From positions 1 to 25,765 of the IMG/VR virus record IMGVR_UViG_3300008267_000401: 25,765 bases of DNA; one strand, 5' to 3'. The number at the start of each line of letters is the position of its first letter. Positions within the stretch are counted from its first letter, which is position 1. Under the pieces are notes generated by a model. It made no database searches. It was not told the origin of the DNA and saw only the letters and a list, made by a program, of their open reading frames with translations. This DNA is from a virus. Of the stretch, positions 4,442 to 24,260 are shown piece by piece. A program made the translations under genes and the position numbers.

Positions 4442-4936
4442 ATGGATTCAAAAACACTTATAAAAGCACTAAAAGTAGCCGTACGTGAGGTTATAAAAGA
4501 AGAATTAACGGAAATTCTTCGAGAAGGTTTACAATCTACTATTACAGAGATAAATCAACCACAGACAAAACGACAAGCTCCGCCGCCGCCTATGCCAAAA
4601 CGTAAGACAGTGCAATTCAATGAAAATAGATGGGCGTCTATTTTAAATGAAACTGATCCGCTTATTGAACAAGGGCCTTCGACAATAAATAGTTTTGCGG
4701 AATTAATGAACGAAGGTATGGATGATACTATTACAATGACATCACGTGATGCTCAAGGTTTTGGTGCAATGCGTCAAAATATGGCTGCTGCAATGGGATT
4801 AGCCCCACAAGCCCCATCTGTAATGGAAGATCCAGAAACTGGTAAAACATATGAAGTAGCACCAGAAGTGCAACAAGCTATGACTCGAGACTATTCTGCG
4901 TTAATGAAAGCAATGAATAAAAAGAAAGGTAACTAA
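4442..4936 (+). CDS. Uncharacterised baseplate-cluster protein, 164 aa
   Basis: The product begins with an amphipathic, charged helix (TLIKALKVAVREVIKEELTE), followed by a proline-rich linker (APPPPMPKRK) and a short polar motif (NRWASILNETDP). The C-terminal half is Met/Ala/Gln-rich and helical, with MEDPETGKTYEVAPEVQQAM. The low-complexity, linker-like build suggests a scaffold, chaperone or peripheral virion protein. It lies directly before the gp25 gene, with a one-base overlap (TAATG), and starts a putative transcription unit under the motif at 4419. I do not recognise the family. Confidence 0.6.
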   Translation: MDSKTLIKALKVAVREVIKEELTEILREGLQSTITEINQPQTKRQAPPPPMPKRKTVQFNENRWASILNETDPLIEQGPSTINSFAELMNEGMDDTITMTSRDAQGFGAMRQNMAAAMGLAPQAPSVMEDPETGKTYEVAPEVQQAMTRDYSALMKAMNKKKGN

Positions 4937-16893: not shown

Positions 16894-17430
16894 ATGATAC
16901 GCTTAAAACAACTTCTTCAAGAAATGTCTGAACGAGATTTAGATCGCTGTTTAGATAAAATACGCAATAAACAATTTCGTTTGATTGGCGCTGGTGATAA
17001 TGGACGTGTATATGAAATTGATGGCGAAGATAAAACGTTTAAAATTACAAAAGAGCAAGATGAATATGAAGTTGCTGATATTATTGTGAATCGATACAAT
17101 GAATTTACTACATTTATTCCAGTATATTATGTTGATGGAAAAAATATGTATATAATGGCAAATGCATCAGAATTACCGATACGCATTAAAAAATCAATTG
17201 ATATGTTTATGCAAGACTTTGCTAACTTTGCTAGAGATGAAGGCGGAGAAGTTTCAATATTTGATTTTACTGCAGAAACTGATAGTTTAGATCCGATGTT
17301 AGATAATTTTTTAAATGCATTGCAATCGGATGTTGAAAAATTAAACATTCCAGAATTTGATTTAGATTTAGATTTTCGATCAGATAACATCATGATGTGG
17401 GATGGAAAAATGGTCATGGTTGATTGGTGA
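16894..17430 (+). CDS. Minimal protein-kinase-fold protein with capsid-targeting-like N-terminus
   Basis: The 178-residue product shows the nucleotide-binding half of a kinase: glycine loop G32-A-G34-D-N-G37-R-V39 (IGAGDNGRVYEI), a lysine at K50 (TFKITKE), helix-C glutamates E57/E59, a hinge-like YIMANASELP, the catalytic loop D160-F-R-S-D-N165 and the metal-binding Asp D177 in MVMVDW. The chain stops one residue after that Asp, so the activation loop and C-lobe helices of full-size kinases are missing. The catalytic Asp and Asn are intact; activity is not proven. The first ten residues, MIRLKQLLQE, match a T4-style capsid-targeting leader with an L-x-E protease site. AAGGA (16884-16888) precedes the ATG. 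It could instead be an antitoxin-like or inactive pseudokinase. Confidence 0.65.
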   Translation: MIRLKQLLQEMSERDLDRCLDKIRNKQFRLIGAGDNGRVYEIDGEDKTFKITKEQDEYEVADIIVNRYNEFTTFIPVYYVDGKNMYIMANASELPIRIKKSIDMFMQDFANFARDEGGEVSIFDFTAETDSLDPMLDNFLNALQSDVEKLNIPEFDLDLDFRSDNIMMWDGKMVMVDW

Positions 17431-17433
17431 TAC

Positions 17434-17448
17434 ATATTTATATAAAAT
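17434..17448 (+). promoter_or_regulatory. Putative late promoter motif
   Basis: An exact ATATTTATATAAAAT copy starting three bases after the kinase-like stop codon and ending nine bases before the ATG at 17458. The intervening TGGATTGAA has at most a weak GGA ribosome binding site that starts immediately after the motif, so a very short or absent leader is expected. Confidence 0.5.
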
Positions 17449-17457
17449 TGGATTGAA

Positions 17458-18645
17458 ATGCAAACACAATTATTAGAAAATATTATTCGTAAATTTTTAT
17501 TTGAACAAGGTGGCAAGCTAACTATGGATTTGGCTAAAGTTACTGAAAAAGACCGCAAGTTAGCTAAAGACCAAATGAGCAAAGTTTTAATGTCAACCGT
17601 TAACGTTAACGCAGTTAATGTTAAAGATTTTGGTCAAATTCGTATTGAACTAATTAGATCAGGGGGTCGAACAAAAGTTGGTGATACAAAAATATCAACA
17701 TATCGTACAAAACAAATATTAGATGATGCAACTAATTATTTAAAAAGAAGTCAAGGCCCTTTGTTTTTAACTCTTACAACGTCTGATTTTGTTTGGTTTT
17801 TAATAAGTGATTCAACAGATAATGAACAAGAAAAACTACGAGCAAAATATTCTGTTATTGCAATATATGCTAAAAAAACATTATTTGGTAAAACGCCGGC
17901 TGTAAAAATGGGTAATGGATTTATCGATGTATTACCTCGAGGCGCAGCGGTATATAATTTTGCTGATATTAAAGTTACAGATTGGAAAGGATATAACAAT
18001 CCAGCTCCGCCAGAAAAAGATATAATACAAGATAGATCATTTACTGGAATGCCTTTACAACAATTAGAATATGGTAATAGATATAGTACAGATATAGATT
18101 GGTTATATTCATATTTTGAAAATAATTTTATTAAATTAAATATTACAACTAATTTAGAATTTAAACAAGCTGTTGGTTTTGGCTGTGAATTAAAATCTAT
18201 GATAGAACAATTTCAAGAAGAACAAAATATACCAGTAACTAGTATATGGGATACTAAAACTAGAGAAACAGTTTCAAGTTTAAAAAAATTAGAATATGAA
18301 ATAAAAAATACAAACGCTTTAAAATCTAAATATAATACATGTAAAATAGAAAATTTAGATTTACAAAATATTAAATACCCAGCTGGCGGATCATTTACTC
18401 CGGAAAATACTAAAGAAAAAAATATAGAATTTATAAAAGTGCAAATATTAATGTTAAATTATGTTAATAATAACAGTAAAAATGGGCCGGCCCCGGTAAA
18501 TAAAGAATGGTATAAAGAATTACAATCAAAAACAGGTATTTATTCCGAAGATTTAATCAATGGTGTACGAGTAATACGAAGTCTTGCTGGCTTACCTAGT
18601 GATAGAATTGATATAACTTCGGAATTAATTGAAAAGATACGATAA
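17458..18645 (+). CDS. Uncharacterised protein, possible packaged head protein, 395 aa
   Basis: I do not recognise the family. The N-terminus MQTQLLENIIRKFLFEQGG contains two L-x-E sites (LLE at 5-7, LFE at 14-16), as expected for a leader cut by a prohead protease. The next part is a mixed alpha/beta domain (about 20-190) with LFLTLTTSDFVWFLISD and AKYSVIAIYAKKTLFG. Around residues 238-275, LKSMIEQFQEEQNIPVTSIW followed by DTKTRETVSSL weakly resembles a peptidoglycan-binding helical module (Q-x-x-x-x-x-x-x-x-G-x-x-D-x-x-T), but without the usual glycine. The C-terminal region is helical and ends in a similar-looking module. It joins the next gene by TAATG, so the two are coupled. Confidence 0.55.
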   Translation: MQTQLLENIIRKFLFEQGGKLTMDLAKVTEKDRKLAKDQMSKVLMSTVNVNAVNVKDFGQIRIELIRSGGRTKVGDTKISTYRTKQILDDATNYLKRSQGPLFLTLTTSDFVWFLISDSTDNEQEKLRAKYSVIAIYAKKTLFGKTPAVKMGNGFIDVLPRGAAVYNFADIKVTDWKGYNNPAPPEKDIIQDRSFTGMPLQQLEYGNRYSTDIDWLYSYFENNFIKLNITTNLEFKQAVGFGCELKSMIEQFQEEQNIPVTSIWDTKTRETVSSLKKLEYEIKNTNALKSKYNTCKIENLDLQNIKYPAGGSFTPENTKEKNIEFIKVQILMLNYVNNNSKNGPAPVNKEWYKELQSKTGIYSEDLINGVRVIRSLAGLPSDRIDITSELIEKIR

Positions 18646-19490
18646 TGAAATCAAAAATAATATTTGAGCAAGTAGTTGATTGGGATGCGTTAGAACAACA
18701 AGTACTAGCAGAGCCAATTGCAAATGATTCGAAACTAAAACCGGCGCCGAAGCCAAAGCCACTAAAACCAGATCCTCCTAAAGTGAAAACGGATGCTTGG
18801 GGTAGACCGGAAGGTGATGAATGGTATGGATATGATCCTAAATTAAAAAAATATGTTACTGGTCCGAAAGTGAAAAAAGATGACACGGAAGGAAATGATA
18901 CATCTAGTAATGCAACTGCTAAATACGCACAACAACAGTTTAAATTGATTCAGAATGCAGTACAATTTTATGAAAACATATCTAAATTAGGACGTTATAA
19001 CAATTGGGATGAAGAACGTATGCAAACCGTATTCGTAAAGTTTTCAATGACAAATCGAGACGGTATGACACCGGTAGAAATGGCTAAGTATTGTGATGTA
19101 ATATATCGAATATTATTTAAAATGTCTGGTACTAGAAAATCAAATAGCGCAGCGTATGAATATTGGTTGTCTAGAAACTATGCATCGTCAACGTCATGGG
19201 AATATTTACAATCAATATCAGTGCCTGATTATAAATCATATGAAGATTGGTTTAAGGGTGATCGATTCGATTACATGGATTGGGATGAATTTGCGAACGT
19301 ACGATATCTTAAAAATATATTCTCTAATGTTGATCTGAAACAAATAAAAAACAAACCTAGTACGGTTGCATTAACGTTAAAATCAAAATTTACAAATGAC
19401 GAAATTCACAAAATGGTTTTATCAGCATATAAAAACAAAATATGGGGTGAACCACGTGGAAAGCGTAAAAATGCTGCTTGGATTAAATAA
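18645..19490 (+). CDS. Uncharacterised protein with Pro/Lys linker, possible packaged head protein
   Basis: This 281-residue protein starts MKSKIIFEQVVDWD, with an I-F-E site at 6-8 that fits the (L/I)-x-E consensus of T4-type prohead proteases. Next come a Pro/Lys-rich linker (KPAPKPKPLKPDPPKVK) and a Trp/Tyr-rich patch (DAWGRPEGDEWYGYDPKLKK), typical of flexible or surface segments. The C-terminal 190 residues are helical and rich in aromatic residues (FVKFSMTNRDGMTPVEMAKY, YEYWLSRNYASS). The gene overlaps its upstream neighbour by one base. There is no clear enzymatic motif. Its tight pairing with the 395-aa gene suggests a joint function. Confidence 0.55.
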   Translation: MKSKIIFEQVVDWDALEQQVLAEPIANDSKLKPAPKPKPLKPDPPKVKTDAWGRPEGDEWYGYDPKLKKYVTGPKVKKDDTEGNDTSSNATAKYAQQQFKLIQNAVQFYENISKLGRYNNWDEERMQTVFVKFSMTNRDGMTPVEMAKYCDVIYRILFKMSGTRKSNSAAYEYWLSRNYASSTSWEYLQSISVPDYKSYEDWFKGDRFDYMDWDEFANVRYLKNIFSNVDLKQIKNKPSTVALTLKSKFTNDEIHKMVLSAYKNKIWGEPRGKRKNAAWIK

Positions 19491-19519
19491 ATTCTAAAAA
19501 TAAAAATAATGAATAAGTT

Positions 19520-19999
19520 ATGAAACGAAATCACTTTCATAGTTCTGGAAATTCAAAACGAGCTAATGCCTTAAAACATGGTTACAAATCTGGCTTAGAA
19601 TTATCCGTGTCAATGCAAATAAATCAAACAGAATATCCTTTGAATTATGAGACAGAAACACTAAAATATATAGTACCAGAACGCAAAGCAAAATATACTC
19701 CTGATTTTGTATTTACAAAACAGAATGGTGAAATCATGTATATCGAAACAAAAGGACGATGGACTACAATTGATCGTACTAAAATGAAACATGTATTAGC
19801 ATCGAATCCTGGAATTGATATTAGAATAGTATTTCAAAATCCAGGACAAAAAATTACAAAAGGTTCGCCAACTACATATGAAGCATACGCTATGAAGTTA
19901 GGAATTAAACATGTTGCTAAGAAAGATATTCCTACGGAATGGCTAGAAGAATGTTTGAAAAAAGGCGAAGAACCAAAAATAGTTAAGAAATTCTTTTGA
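19520..19999 (+). CDS. T7 endonuclease I-like Holliday-junction resolvase
   Basis: The 159-residue product matches T7 gp3 along most of its length. It has SGLE (E27) at the first catalytic site, YTPDF (D62), and IETKG (E76, K78), the PD-(D/E)xK active site in the same order and spacing. The later block IDIRIVFQNPG, then KITKGSPTTYEAYAMKLGIK and IPTEWLEE, mirrors T7's DIRIVFSS, KGSPTSYGEFCEKHGIK and IPAEW. T7 endonuclease I is 149 aa and works as a dimer that cuts four-way DNA junctions and branched replication products. Here it would debranch DNA before packaging and act with the primase and recombination nuclease that follow. The start lacks a clear ribosome binding site. The basic N-terminus (MKRNHFHSSGNSKR) fits DNA binding. 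Confidence 0.9.
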   Translation: MKRNHFHSSGNSKRANALKHGYKSGLELSVSMQINQTEYPLNYETETLKYIVPERKAKYTPDFVFTKQNGEIMYIETKGRWTTIDRTKMKHVLASNPGIDIRIVFQNPGQKITKGSPTTYEAYAMKLGIKHVAKKDIPTEWLEECLKKGEEPKIVKKFF

Positions 20000-20179: not shown

Positions 20180-21124
20180 ATGAAGAATCTTAAGTTATTG
20201 CAATTACTTGAATCAGTATTAGGTAAAGGTAAATCTACATCTGGTAATAATATTGCGTTCTTCTCTCCATTTACTTCACATTACAAGCCGAAATTAGAAA
20301 TTGATATCAATACCACTCATGATGGTGAAAATGCATGGCATTGTTGGATATCGGACAAAAAAGGTCGTTCTATTTCTAGTTTGTTTAAGCAAATGAATCT
20401 GCCTAAGCAGTATCATGAACAACTTGCAAGAATCATTCAATCATCTCGTTATAAAACTCAAACAGAAACTAAACGAGAAAATGCTAGCATACAATTGCCG
20501 CAAGATTATATTCCATTATGGAAACCAAAAAAGACTCCTGATTATCGCAATGCAATTGCATATCTTAAGAATCGTGGAGTTACAATGTTTGATATTTTAA
20601 AGTATCGAATTGGTTATTGTGAATCTGGAGAATATTCCGGTAAAATAATTATTCCTAGTTATGATGACGCTGGACAATTAAATTATTTTGTTAGCCGAGC
20701 TTTTTACAAAGCAGATAAACAAAAGCATAAAAATCCTAAAATTTCTAAAGATATAATTGGTTTTGATTTAACTATAAATTGGAATGAGCCAATCATACTT
20801 TGTGAAGGTGCATTTGATGCAATTGCAATAAAACGCAATGCAATACCATTATTTGGTAAAATTATTCAACCGGCACTGCAAAAGAAAATTATTGAAAAGC
20901 GAGTACGAGACATTTATATTTGTCTTGATGCAGATGCTTTAAAGAATGCTATTCAAATTGCAGAACGTTTTATGGCAGAAGGTCTTAATGTATACTTTGT
21001 TGAATTGCAAGATGCTGATGCATCTGAATTAGGATTCGAACGCATACGAGCAATATTAAATGAAACTGATATATTAACATTTGAGGGTATTATGCATCTC
21101 AAAATGGGCATGTTATGGACATAA
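20180..21124 (+). CDS. DnaG-type primase (gp61-like) with degenerate zinc-binding domain
   Basis: The 314-residue protein has a Toprim core: E209 in IILCEGAFDAIA, D250-A-D252 in IYICLDADALK, and DADASELG around 278-285, preceded by the primase core string YSGKIIIPSYDDAGQLNYFV. The N-terminal about 70 residues match the shape of a DnaG zinc ribbon (FFSPFTSHYKPKLEID, then AWHCWISDKKGRSISSLF), but the usual Cys/His ligands are lost apart from H54-C55, so it probably folds without zinc. It makes RNA primers for lagging-strand synthesis together with a replicative helicase encoded elsewhere. Its end overlaps the recombination nuclease gene by ten bases. The start follows an AT-only run with no ribosome binding site. 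Confidence 0.85.
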   Translation: MKNLKLLQLLESVLGKGKSTSGNNIAFFSPFTSHYKPKLEIDINTTHDGENAWHCWISDKKGRSISSLFKQMNLPKQYHEQLARIIQSSRYKTQTETKRENASIQLPQDYIPLWKPKKTPDYRNAIAYLKNRGVTMFDILKYRIGYCESGEYSGKIIIPSYDDAGQLNYFVSRAFYKADKQKHKNPKISKDIIGFDLTINWNEPIILCEGAFDAIAIKRNAIPLFGKIIQPALQKKIIEKRVRDIYICLDADALKNAIQIAERFMAEGLNVYFVELQDADASELGFERIRAILNETDILTFEGIMHLKMGMLWT

Positions 21125-23358
21125 AAAAACTAGATACACACATTGAAAAGATAGATAAAATCTTTCATATTTCAGATGTACATATTCGTACATTGAAACG
21201 ACATAAAGAATACCGACAAGTATTTCAACGTATGTTTGATTTTATTGCAATGCATTCTACTGGAAATAGTATTGCAGTTGTTACAGGTGATATTGTACAT
21301 AGCAAACTAGATATGTCTCCGGAGCTAGTTCAAATGTTAGTTGACTTCTTTAATGGATTCGAAATTCCTACCATTGTTATCTTAGGTAACCATGACATGA
21401 ATTTAAACAATATGCATCGTGTGGATGCAATTAGTCCTGTATTAGATGTGATAAAAAATTCTAATATTCATTTTATCAAAGAAAATGGGTTGTTTGAATT
21501 AGGAGGCGTTACATGGAATCATATGGCTGTTGATAAAACACCTGCAGATTACATTCGTGCCAATGAATTTGATGCTGAATATAAAATTGCATTACATCAT
21601 GGTGCAGTAAATACTGCTCGAACTGATATTGGCTATCAAATTTCAAATGAGCACGTTGGTGTTGATTTATTTGCAGGTCATGATATTACATTGTTAGGGG
21701 ATATTCATAAACCAGCTCAATTCTTAGATGACGCACGTACTATTGCATATCCGGGTTCATTAATTCAACAAAATCATGGCGAAGCTCTTATACATGGCGT
21801 ATTAGTTTGGGATGTAGAACGAAGAACTGCAGATTTTCATGAAATTGAAAATGAATATGGTTACGTAACAATTGAAACTCAAGGTGCATCTATTATTAAT
21901 GCTCCTGCAAAAATGCCAAAGCGTCCTAGAGTTCGTATTAAATTCAACGGCACTAGTGCAGCAGATATGAAAAAACTTATTGCATCAATTCGCAAGAAAT
22001 ATGCAGTAGAAGACATAACAATTCAACGAACGATGGGGTCAACTGAAACTGCAGCATCATCTAGTATTGCAATAGGCAATGTTCGCGATGTTGAATATCA
22101 AAACGTATTATTAACAGAATATATTGACAATAACTTTCCACAAGCAACTACACAAGAACAAGATGCAATTAGACATATTAACCGTACAATTAATTCTAAA
22201 TTACCAGCAGTTGAGTCAGTACGTCACACAACATGGCATCCGATATCTTTTGAATTCGATAACATGTTTAGTTATGGCGAAGGCAATATTTTAAATTTTG
22301 AAAATCTACAAGATGTTTGTGGTTTATTTGCTGCAAATACATCTGGTAAATCTTCTTTGCTTGATGCAATTACATATACTATATTTGATAAATGTAGTAA
22401 AACAGGCAAAGCAAATGAAGTATTAAACAATAAAAAAGATTGGTTTCGTGGTGTATTTCGTTTTGAAATGAATGGCATTGTATATACCATTGAACGTAGA
22501 GGTACTCAAAATAAAAAGAAAGAAACTCACGTTAAAGTAGATGTAGATTTTTATACTGAATCAGAAAATTTAAACGGAGAAGAACGCAGTGAAACAAATA
22601 AAAATATTCGTCGCTTCTTAGGCACATATGATGACTTTATTTTAACGGCATTTTCATTGCAAGCTGACAACAATAACTTTATTGAAAAATCGCAAAAAGA
22701 ACGTAAAGATCTTTTATCACAATTTTTAGACATTACGGTATTTGAACAATTATACCAACTTGCGGCAGATGAAATTAAAGAGACTGCTGGTCGATTAAAA
22801 GAATATAAGAAAACAGATTTTGCAGAAATTATGTTGCAAGCAGATGAAATTATTTCTGCAAATCAAGATACAATTCAATCTTTAGAACAACAAGAAGATA
22901 AAGCTCAAGAAGATAGAAACGATTTGCAAAATCGCATCGTTGAGCTTATTGAATCAAAATTACCTACAACATATGAAGGACCAGATATTGACATTTTAAC
23001 AACGCAAGAAAATGTATTAACTGAAAAAATAGAAACACTGCAATCAGATATTGAAACTGCAGAACAACGAATTGTTGAAATGAAACAACAAAATGCAGAG
23101 CAAAAGTCTATTGTACAATCTCAATATAATCTGCAAGAAATACAAGAAAATATTGAAGTACATAAAAAACTATTACAAGAAAAAGAAACACTTAGTTTAC
23201 AAATAAAAGAGCAACAAGGAGTAATTGATGCAAAGCAACAAAAAATTGAACATCTCGATGCTCATGAATATGGAACTGCAAATACTGTACATCTAACATT
23301 TTTGTACAAGATGCAATCGAAGCCCAAGATACAATTGATCAAGATCGAGCAATATTAA
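21115..23358 (+). CDS. 47: Fused Mre11-Rad50 (gp47-gp46/SbcDC-like) recombination nuclease, N-terminal frame
   Basis: This 747-residue frame holds a complete Mre11/SbcD-type phosphoesterase and the first half of Rad50. Phosphoesterase motifs: D21-x-H23 (ISDVHIR), GDI with D59, GNHD (92-94), H161-H162 (LHHGAV), H189 and H198 (GHDITLLGDIHKP). After a linker, Rad50 starts near residue 378 (ISFEFDNMFSYGEGN), with the Walker A variant AANTSGKSS (406-414, first glycine replaced by Ala), the Q-loop region FSLQADNNNFIEKS, and the ascending coiled coil from about 550. The frame ends 22 codons after the expected zinc hook, because the true reading continues in the -1 frame from about 23271 (next entry). 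T4 encodes these two parts as separate genes. Together they resect DNA ends for recombination-dependent replication. Confidence 0.85.
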   Translation: MDIKKLDTHIEKIDKIFHISDVHIRTLKRHKEYRQVFQRMFDFIAMHSTGNSIAVVTGDIVHSKLDMSPELVQMLVDFFNGFEIPTIVILGNHDMNLNNMHRVDAISPVLDVIKNSNIHFIKENGLFELGGVTWNHMAVDKTPADYIRANEFDAEYKIALHHGAVNTARTDIGYQISNEHVGVDLFAGHDITLLGDIHKPAQFLDDARTIAYPGSLIQQNHGEALIHGVLVWDVERRTADFHEIENEYGYVTIETQGASIINAPAKMPKRPRVRIKFNGTSAADMKKLIASIRKKYAVEDITIQRTMGSTETAASSSIAIGNVRDVEYQNVLLTEYIDNNFPQATTQEQDAIRHINRTINSKLPAVESVRHTTWHPISFEFDNMFSYGEGNILNFENLQDVCGLFAANTSGKSSLLDAITYTIFDKCSKTGKANEVLNNKKDWFRGVFRFEMNGIVYTIERRGTQNKKKETHVKVDVDFYTESENLNGEERSETNKNIRRFLGTYDDFILTAFSLQADNNNFIEKSQKERKDLLSQFLDITVFEQLYQLAADEIKETAGRLKEYKKTDFAEIMLQADEIISANQDTIQSLEQQEDKAQEDRNDLQNRIVELIESKLPTTYEGPDIDILTTQENVLTEKIETLQSDIETAEQRIVEMKQQNAEQKSIVQSQYNLQEIQENIEVHKKLLQEKETLSLQIKEQQGVIDAKQQKIEHLDAHEYGTANTVHLTFLYKMQSKPKIQLIKIEQY

Positions 23359-24260
23359 CAGAATTGCAATTTCGTTTTAATAAATTACAAACAAATATTG
23401 AAACAGTATCTATATATCAAGTACAATATGATGAATTAACACATTATTCACAAACTATTCGTACAACTACAACTAATATTGAACGCAAAGAACTTCAGCT
23501 TCAATTATTAGAATCAGAATTACAAACCCGAGAATCTGAATTAGAAACGATATTAGAGCGACAGGAATCATTTACAAAAAATGAAACTGCAATCAAACAT
23601 AATCGACGTGTTGATGTTAAGATTGGATCATGCAAAGATGATATAGAAATACATACTGAAGCTATAAAATCTATTCAATCGCAAATTAAAGCTCTATTCG
23701 GTGCTATTGAAGTTGCAAAAACAAATCGAAGCACTGCACTTAAAAATTTAGAAGCATATCAACAACTAGAAACTGAATATAAAGCATATGAATATTATTT
23801 AGCAGCAGTTCAACGCAATGGTATTCCATATGAGTTGGTTGGTAAAGCTCTACCTAAAATTGAATCTGAAATAAACAATGTTCTCAATCAAATTGTTGAG
23901 TTTAACATGGTGTTAAATACTGACGGTAAAAATATTAATGGATATATTATATATGATGAAGATAATTATTGGCCATTAGAATTAACATCTGGAATGGAAC
24001 GATTTATTTCGTCATTGGCTATTAGAATTGCACTTATCAATGTATCTGCTTTACCTCGTCCAAATTTCATTGCAATCGATGAAGGATGGGGTTCATTAGA
24101 CTCAGAACATATTTCTGCAGTAGTTAACTTATTTGATTATTTTAGAACTAAATTTGATTTCTCAATCATTATTTCACACGTTGATTCTATGCGAGATATG
24201 GTTGATAATTTAATTGAAGTAAACAAGACAAACGGATTTAGCCAGATTCATCACGTGTAA
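23268..24260 (+). CDS. 46: Rad50/gp46 C-terminal half, continuing the Mre11-Rad50 fusion in the -1 frame
   Basis: This frame is open from 23268. It contains the zinc hook CKYC (23277-23288) followed by NIFVQDAIEAQDTIDQDRA, then the descending coiled coil, the ABC signature LTSGMERFISSLAIRIAL (about 23980) and Walker B FIAIDEGWGSLD (24066 on), with the D-loop Asp and the switch His in IIISHVDSM. These are exactly the parts missing from the preceding frame, so the two frames are one gene with a frameshift. The first start-like codon is a TTG at 23364, after the hook, and no ATG occurs until far into the protein, so an independent start is unlikely. If read through by a -1 shift after the TAT at 23269, the full protein would be 1048 residues. 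Confidence 0.8.
   Translation: MWNCKYCTSNIFVQDAIEAQDTIDQDRAILTELQFRFNKLQTNIETVSIYQVQYDELTHYSQTIRTTTTNIERKELQLQLLESELQTRESELETILERQESFTKNETAIKHNRRVDVKIGSCKDDIEIHTEAIKSIQSQIKALFGAIEVAKTNRSTALKNLEAYQQLETEYKAYEYYLAAVQRNGIPYELVGKALPKIESEINNVLNQIVEFNMVLNTDGKNINGYIIYDEDNYWPLELTSGMERFISSLAIRIALINVSALPRPNFIAIDEGWGSLDSEHISAVVNLFDYFRTKFDFSIIISHVDSMRDMVDNLIEVNKTNGFSQIHHV

Follow-up and report, generated by a model that had tools for sequence, protein, structure and literature searches.

Three adjacent viral genes, called P1, P2 and P3 here, probably encode head cargo, that is, proteins that would be targeted to the capsid by short N-terminal leaders, trimmed by a protease and probably ejected, and two of them occupy a site at which genes appear to be exchanged between relatives. 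The genes belong to an uncultured T4-like phage, known from a stand-alone virus record of 25,765 nucleotides (25.8 kb), which was analysed as a whole and is called the window below. According to this reading, the three products are candidate non-structural proteins of the phage head, and their N-termini of 8–16 residues would act as capsid-targeting sequences that bind the prohead core. A prohead protease of the gp21 type (S77) would then cut behind the last phi-x-E and release the mature proteins within the head, from which they would probably be ejected along with the DNA. P1, with a predicted truncated protein-kinase fold, would be the constant cargo and would most likely phosphorylate a host target, and the site between P1 and endonuclease I would allow payload to be swapped (none, one, two, or two fused genes) with the leader retained. 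What can be read directly in the sequences is the leaders, their conservation as opposed to the turnover of the bodies, the protease of the relatives with a matching cut signature, and the internal leaders of fused genes; that the proteins are targeted, cleaved, packaged and ejected, and all that they would do in the host, is what we infer.

The window carries a T4-like baseplate/tail region that includes a GPW_gp25 domain and a gp6-like wedge protein; after this region come endonuclease I, Toprim/primase-like and SbcD/SbcC-like genes. All three ORFs start with ATG, and the positions and N-termini given for them in a preliminary description proved exact (MIRLKQLLQE/M, MQTQLLENIIRKFLFE/Q and MKSKIIFE/Q; here and below, a slash marks the predicted cut). 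The leaders end in LLQE, FLFE and IIFE, which correspond to L/I-x-E or a close hydrophobic variant, and the mature proteins would begin at Met11 (P1), Gln17 (P2) and Gln9 (P3; Table 1). The same description had called the leaders amphipathic, which has no support in statistics, the helical moments of all three being not above those of shuffled versions. When the P1 leader was looked for as exact DNA, its codons being guessed, there was no match, the actual gene using other codons.

Table 1. Features of the P1–P3 region, in positions of the window
Feature	Positions	Strand	Remarks
P1 leader, MIRLKQLLQE	16894..16923	+	Predicted cut after Glu10; M1, I2, L4, K5, L8 and E10 invariant among 42 relatives; residues 1-9 disordered in the model
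P1, 178 aa	16894..17430	+	Conserved core gene; predicted C-terminally truncated protein-kinase-like protein; K50, E57, D160, N165 and D177 invariant
P2 leader, MQTQLLENIIRKFLFE	17458..17505	+	Predicted cut after Glu16, before Q; ends FLFE
P2, 395 aa	17458..18645	+	Occupies the first slot; residues 241-270 resemble a peptidoglycan-binding segment
P3 leader, MKSKIIFE	18645..18668	+	Predicted cut after Glu8; ESRILLNKIILE/Q is retained at the P2-P3 joint of L013, a fused relative
P3, 281 aa	18645..19490	+	Second slot gene; relatives 21-41% identical
Exchange site, P1 to endonuclease I	17431..19519	no strand	Empty, or with 1 or 2 genes, in relatives
Endonuclease I-like gene	19520..19999	+	Delimits the exchange site on the right and is not a cargo gene; Phage_endo_I, 110.6 bits

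Elsewhere in the window, a conserved small protein starting with MDSKTLIKALKVAVREVIKEELTEILREGL is encoded ahead of gp25 (4442–4936), and the N-terminus of its relatives fits the loose leader motif. The SbcD/SbcC-like (gp47/gp46-like) gene at 21115–24260 is one ORF of about 1046–1049 aa in relatives, but in the window a frame change near 23358, perhaps a sequencing error, splits it into parts of 747 and 298 aa. Its fused nuclease-ATPase layout is unusual compared with T4.

Relatives of P1 were found 154 times in viral contigs, and 80 loci were kept for analysis. Among 50,697 phage records there was no relative of P1 at E ≤ 0.01, and a looser search returned weak matches to Bacillus phage 'kinase' proteins and nothing else. 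Judged by the wedge protein, two cultured phages come closest, Microcystis phage Mel-JY01 at 54.5% identity and Flavobacterium phage immuto at 42.3%. Across the 80 loci, the slot between the conserved P1 and endonuclease I holds zero, one or two genes, an empty slot measuring 17–26 nt. It is empty in the longest relative, G001 (169 kb), where the slot genes are thus dispensable, and likewise in some other relatives. The slot proteins, 67 of them distinct, have diverse bodies and similar N-termini, those of the first slot starting with, for example, MKQNLLERIIRTMLFEQ, MKRIMIEQIIRKLLLEQ, MNTMLEQIIRQTLLEG or MNLLETVIKRLLFEA and those of the second with MKLKDLLFEN, MNTSILYEQ or MKINLSEQ; relatives of P2 are 21–44% identical. 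Since the P2 and P3 positions are swapped in relatives with the tag kept, they probably hold changeable payload that is carried in with the DNA. A cassette of three had been proposed for these genes, and three leader genes do stand side by side, but P1 is a conserved core gene, P2 and P3 make up a two-gene exchange site, and further leader genes lie elsewhere in related genomes.

No head gene was recognised within the 25.8-kb window, whose own head genes lie outside the record, and for this reason the prohead protease was looked for in relatives. Peptidase_S77, the gp21 family, is found in 10 of 12 long related contigs, in both cultured relatives and in T4, where gp21 cuts after L/I-x-E (PMC9026906). 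A matching signature recurs, at predicted cut positions, in head proteins of the relatives. Their capsid protein, about 30% identical to that of T4, has a conserved QLVKE/A(T/S)STG, with QIVSE/A and QLISE/A in the cultured relatives, and by its context QLVKE/A would correspond to SFLTE/A of T4 gp23. Their scaffold end reads VLSE/GFELANRWKKLAGLL, and a small head-module protein starts with MNKLKKLYRDFFGLTE/Q, which contains FFGLTE/Q and is made like the slot leaders. Capsid targeting with gp21-type cleavage, as first proposed for P1–P3, is well supported by sequence, through the S77 protease of the relatives, the common phi-x-E signature, the leader kept over swapped bodies and the internal leaders of fused genes, although the protease is seen in relatives and not in the window.

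In six loci, a single long slot ORF contains an internal ES...phi-x-EQ motif, the background of internal ES...xEQ matches being 0.61 per 10,000 residues, and in five of them the motif lies at a two-gene joint. In L013 (ESRILLNKIILE/Q), where the counterparts of the window's P2 and P3 are fused, and in L045 (ESKIIMKKTITE/Q) and L054 (ESILLIKNRINE/Q), it is bracketed by homology to separate first and second genes. In L060 (ESRISLKSILREILLNE/Q), the second-gene homology begins within the motif, in L080 (ESRNSYYADKFIYE/Q) the position is consistent with the joint, and L073 (ESVNPKVVKVQLSNFLQPLFE/Q) is the one of the six not counted at a joint. This layout suggests that the internal tag is excised at both ends, at E/S and E/Q. 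It is quite possible, if still a tentative idea, that in this phage group the prohead protease also separates payload polyproteins, the internal targeting peptide between two cut sites giving two head-carried effectors per translation product, and that the leader is a portable loading tag for exchangeable wall-enzyme payload beside a constant injected mini-kinase.

The structure model of P1 (mean pLDDT 83.5) continues from the disordered leader into a protein-kinase-like fold. Among the 50 Foldseek matches listed, all are kinases, pseudokinases or kinase-fold phosphotransferases, at TM-scores of only about 0.4, and a structural alignment with CDK2 gave a Z of 8.1 over 122 residues at 4.0 Å. 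As this alignment ends at CDK2 residue 146, P1 would stop at the DFG equivalent, D177-W178, with which the chain ends, and a complete C-lobe after DFG is absent. The five invariant residues of the P1 body (42 sequences; Table 1) can be assigned, by position, the roles of the catalytic Lys, Glu, Asp, Asn and Asp. P1 is predicted, at these low TM-scores, to have a truncated protein-kinase-like fold. A PADLOC search of P1–P3 gave no match.

The PG_binding_1 match of P2 reaches 19.5 bits, under the curated cut-off of 23, and that of its relative L013 reaches 23.7 bits, over it; the P2 structure model is of low confidence (pTM 0.41), and a fold search with it gave no match at E ≤ 0.001. P3 has no Pfam match. 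The second slot of relatives, as distinct from P3, often encodes an M15-like peptidase in which the HxxGxAxD ... HxH zinc ligands are present and H52, D59, H133, H136 and H138 are invariant in 12 proteins. Their profile matches among solved peptidase-like structures include entry 9flh (1.2e-07), for which a literature search found no paper, and an L-alanyl-D-glutamate peptidase (0.027). In G001, a leader gene at 94545–96314 (L114:545-2314) encodes 589 aa with the leader MIRLKSLLFE and a Phage_lysozyme2 domain. With the sub-threshold PG_binding_1 match of P2, that of L013, the M15-like proteins and this G001 gene, wall enzymes thus recur behind the leader, and payloads predicted to bind or cut peptidoglycan would most likely help the DNA through the wall or work in the periplasm. 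The proteins had earlier been described as injected to act on the host; given the putative domains of P2 and its relatives for binding or cutting peptidoglycan, the payload looks envelope-directed at least in part, and not meant for host take-over alone.

Loading into the tail is the main rival to the head-cargo reading. The leaders would in that case be sorting signals for the tail or baseplate (hub or tube lumen), the proteins would serve as virion-associated peptidoglycan hydrolases, and phi-x-E would belong to a docking peptide instead of a prohead protease site. P1–P3 are indeed located in the tail/baseplate region, after the baseplate and fibre genes, the M15-like proteins match tape-measure and endolysin PHROGs, the Phage_lysozyme2 domain of the G001 leader gene is a tail lysozyme domain, and the wall enzymes of the relatives would suit a tail location too. 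Tail loading is nevertheless unlikely, since the same signature is present in the capsid protein, the scaffold and the head-module protein, the two E/ sites that flank the internal leader in fused genes fit excision better than docking, and P1 is kinase-like.

Several comparisons show that the leaders are commoner than chance would give. A strict form of the motif, [LIVMF][LIVMF]xE with its E between residues 7 and 20, occurs in 40 of the 67 slot proteins (60%) versus 3.3% of the internal windows of the same proteins. For 608 first-slot pairs without detectable body similarity, the N-terminal local score was at least 25 in 36%, versus 2.3% when the partner was the N-terminus of another gene of these genomes and 0.4% when it was an internal segment; for the second slot (163 such pairs) the values are 15%, 1.0% and 0.2%, respectively. 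This test, with its controls, was used instead of the global pairwise identity of leader and body, which was dropped as uninformative, since the identity of the bodies is inflated by gaps. When 15 first-slot proteins are aligned, only three columns are invariant, M1, L6 and E16, all within the leader, which also holds three of the four nearly invariant columns (E7, I10 and L14); conservation in the slot thus falls on the leader and not on the body. A scan for the loose motif phi-phi-x-E was dropped as a detector, as it fits 10–17% of the genes of T4 and of the cultured relatives, and the evidence is instead taken from recurrence, conservation among orthologues, and junctions. The Q that follows the leader's E in 38 of the 67 slot proteins was not counted as evidence, because the search rule favoured Q.

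A check for the same leader on other genes of the phage had been suggested, and in relatives this kind of leader is present on about a dozen more genes elsewhere in the genomes. A tighter MIRLKxLLxE-type expression finds 15 genes in G001 versus 1.0 expected from internal frequency, and in controls without an S77 match it finds none in crAss001 (0.35 expected) and two in SPO1 (0.64 expected). In Flavobacterium phage immuto (L132-L140), the leader (F)DLKKFLVE/N(K/R)LTxNSxLL or close variants (MENFDLKKFLVE/N) stands on four genes, which makes immuto a cultured phage with its own repeated leader family. Microcystis phage Mel-JY01 has three adjacent paralogues at 60276–62718 (L141-L150), with MIKLKSLLQE/IISDRVWH, MIKLKSLLKE/IISDRVWH and MIKLMSLVTE/TISDRVWH. 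In the literature searched, neither the virion proteins of immuto nor Mel-JY01 had a paper. A second leader family, LAE/NMRRFGTKNL..E, with two possible cut sites, is found on several unrelated-looking genes per genome (L109:16011-17364; L113, G001 85268–88873; G003-G006 and G008).

The common N-termini could also result from the descent of mosaic slot genes and the usual N-terminal composition of phage proteins, with no role in targeting. At E ≤ 1, single linkage gathers the first-slot proteins into one group through weak links, so leader sharing may partly be descent, and the loose motif is as frequent as given above. This explanation is nonetheless improbable, because among the 15 diverged first-slot proteins the leader alone is conserved, and its type recurs on distant genes and at the joint inside fused ORFs. 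Slightly less probable still is that P1–P3 are accessories of the prohead core or scaffold, cut and lost before maturation without delivery to the host. In favour of this, the cut signature is that of the scaffold and head-module proteins, and in T4 the head loses most fragments of its core (PMC9026906); against it, the slot, unlike core genes, can be dispensed with and is hypervariable, and the payloads have enzyme-like folds or motifs and a single terminal cut per chain, not many.

As head cargo, the proteins would resemble IPI-III and Alt of T4 and the T-even internal-protein loci (covered in PMC9026906 and PMC12373910, both citing Repoila et al. 1994). Shared features are a short N-terminal L/I-x-E leader, unrelated bodies behind one leader, and a dispensable hypervariable locus (here P2–P3, with P1 conserved), and a gp21-family protease is seen in relatives of the window. 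The T4 internal proteins are dispensable and are directed to the core by propeptides of 10–19 residues (PMC9026906), and the T-even Ip1-3, which have the leader alone in common, enter the host by injection and differ in the GmrSD systems that they block (PMC12373910). The leader sequence differs, with MKTYQEFIAE in T4 and MxRLKxLLxE or LExIIRxxLxE in the window group, whose payloads are also larger, have wall-binding or -cutting domains, include a kinase-like protein and are in some cases fused with an internal leader, at a locus beside tail genes and endonuclease I. The propeptide of the T4 vertex protein gp24, MAKINELLRE/S, which we take to be cut at this position, has nearly the same form as the P1-type MIRLKQLLQE or MIRLKQLLRE, although gp24 is a shell protein and P1 a proposed cargo. 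Head-carried wall-degrading activity for DNA entry is known from the ejected transglycosylase of the T7 gp16 type, but T7 is a short-tailed phage, its gp16 is not known to have a cleaved leader, and the enzyme class differs from that of the window-group payloads. The Dar proteins of the phage named P1 are also head-packaged, with N-terminal residues that target DarB to the head, and are believed to enter the cell, but no common leader is reported for them, DarB is very large, and no comparable exchange site is described (PMC9024508). A prohead protease likewise cleaves the head ejection proteins of SPN3US and phiKZ close to their N-termini, and ejection is probable for these too, but they belong to another phage group and have long propeptides with several cuts (PMC10052503).

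If the head-cargo reading is correct, the 'internal protein' strategy of T-even phages would extend to a group of uncultured T4-like phages whose kinship with T4 is distant and whose leader code is a different one. As sequence alone suffices to read this code, candidate injected proteins could be found across metagenomes by leader and cut signature. Wall enzymes and a truncated kinase would join the list of likely payloads, and internal tags released by the protease would become directly testable.
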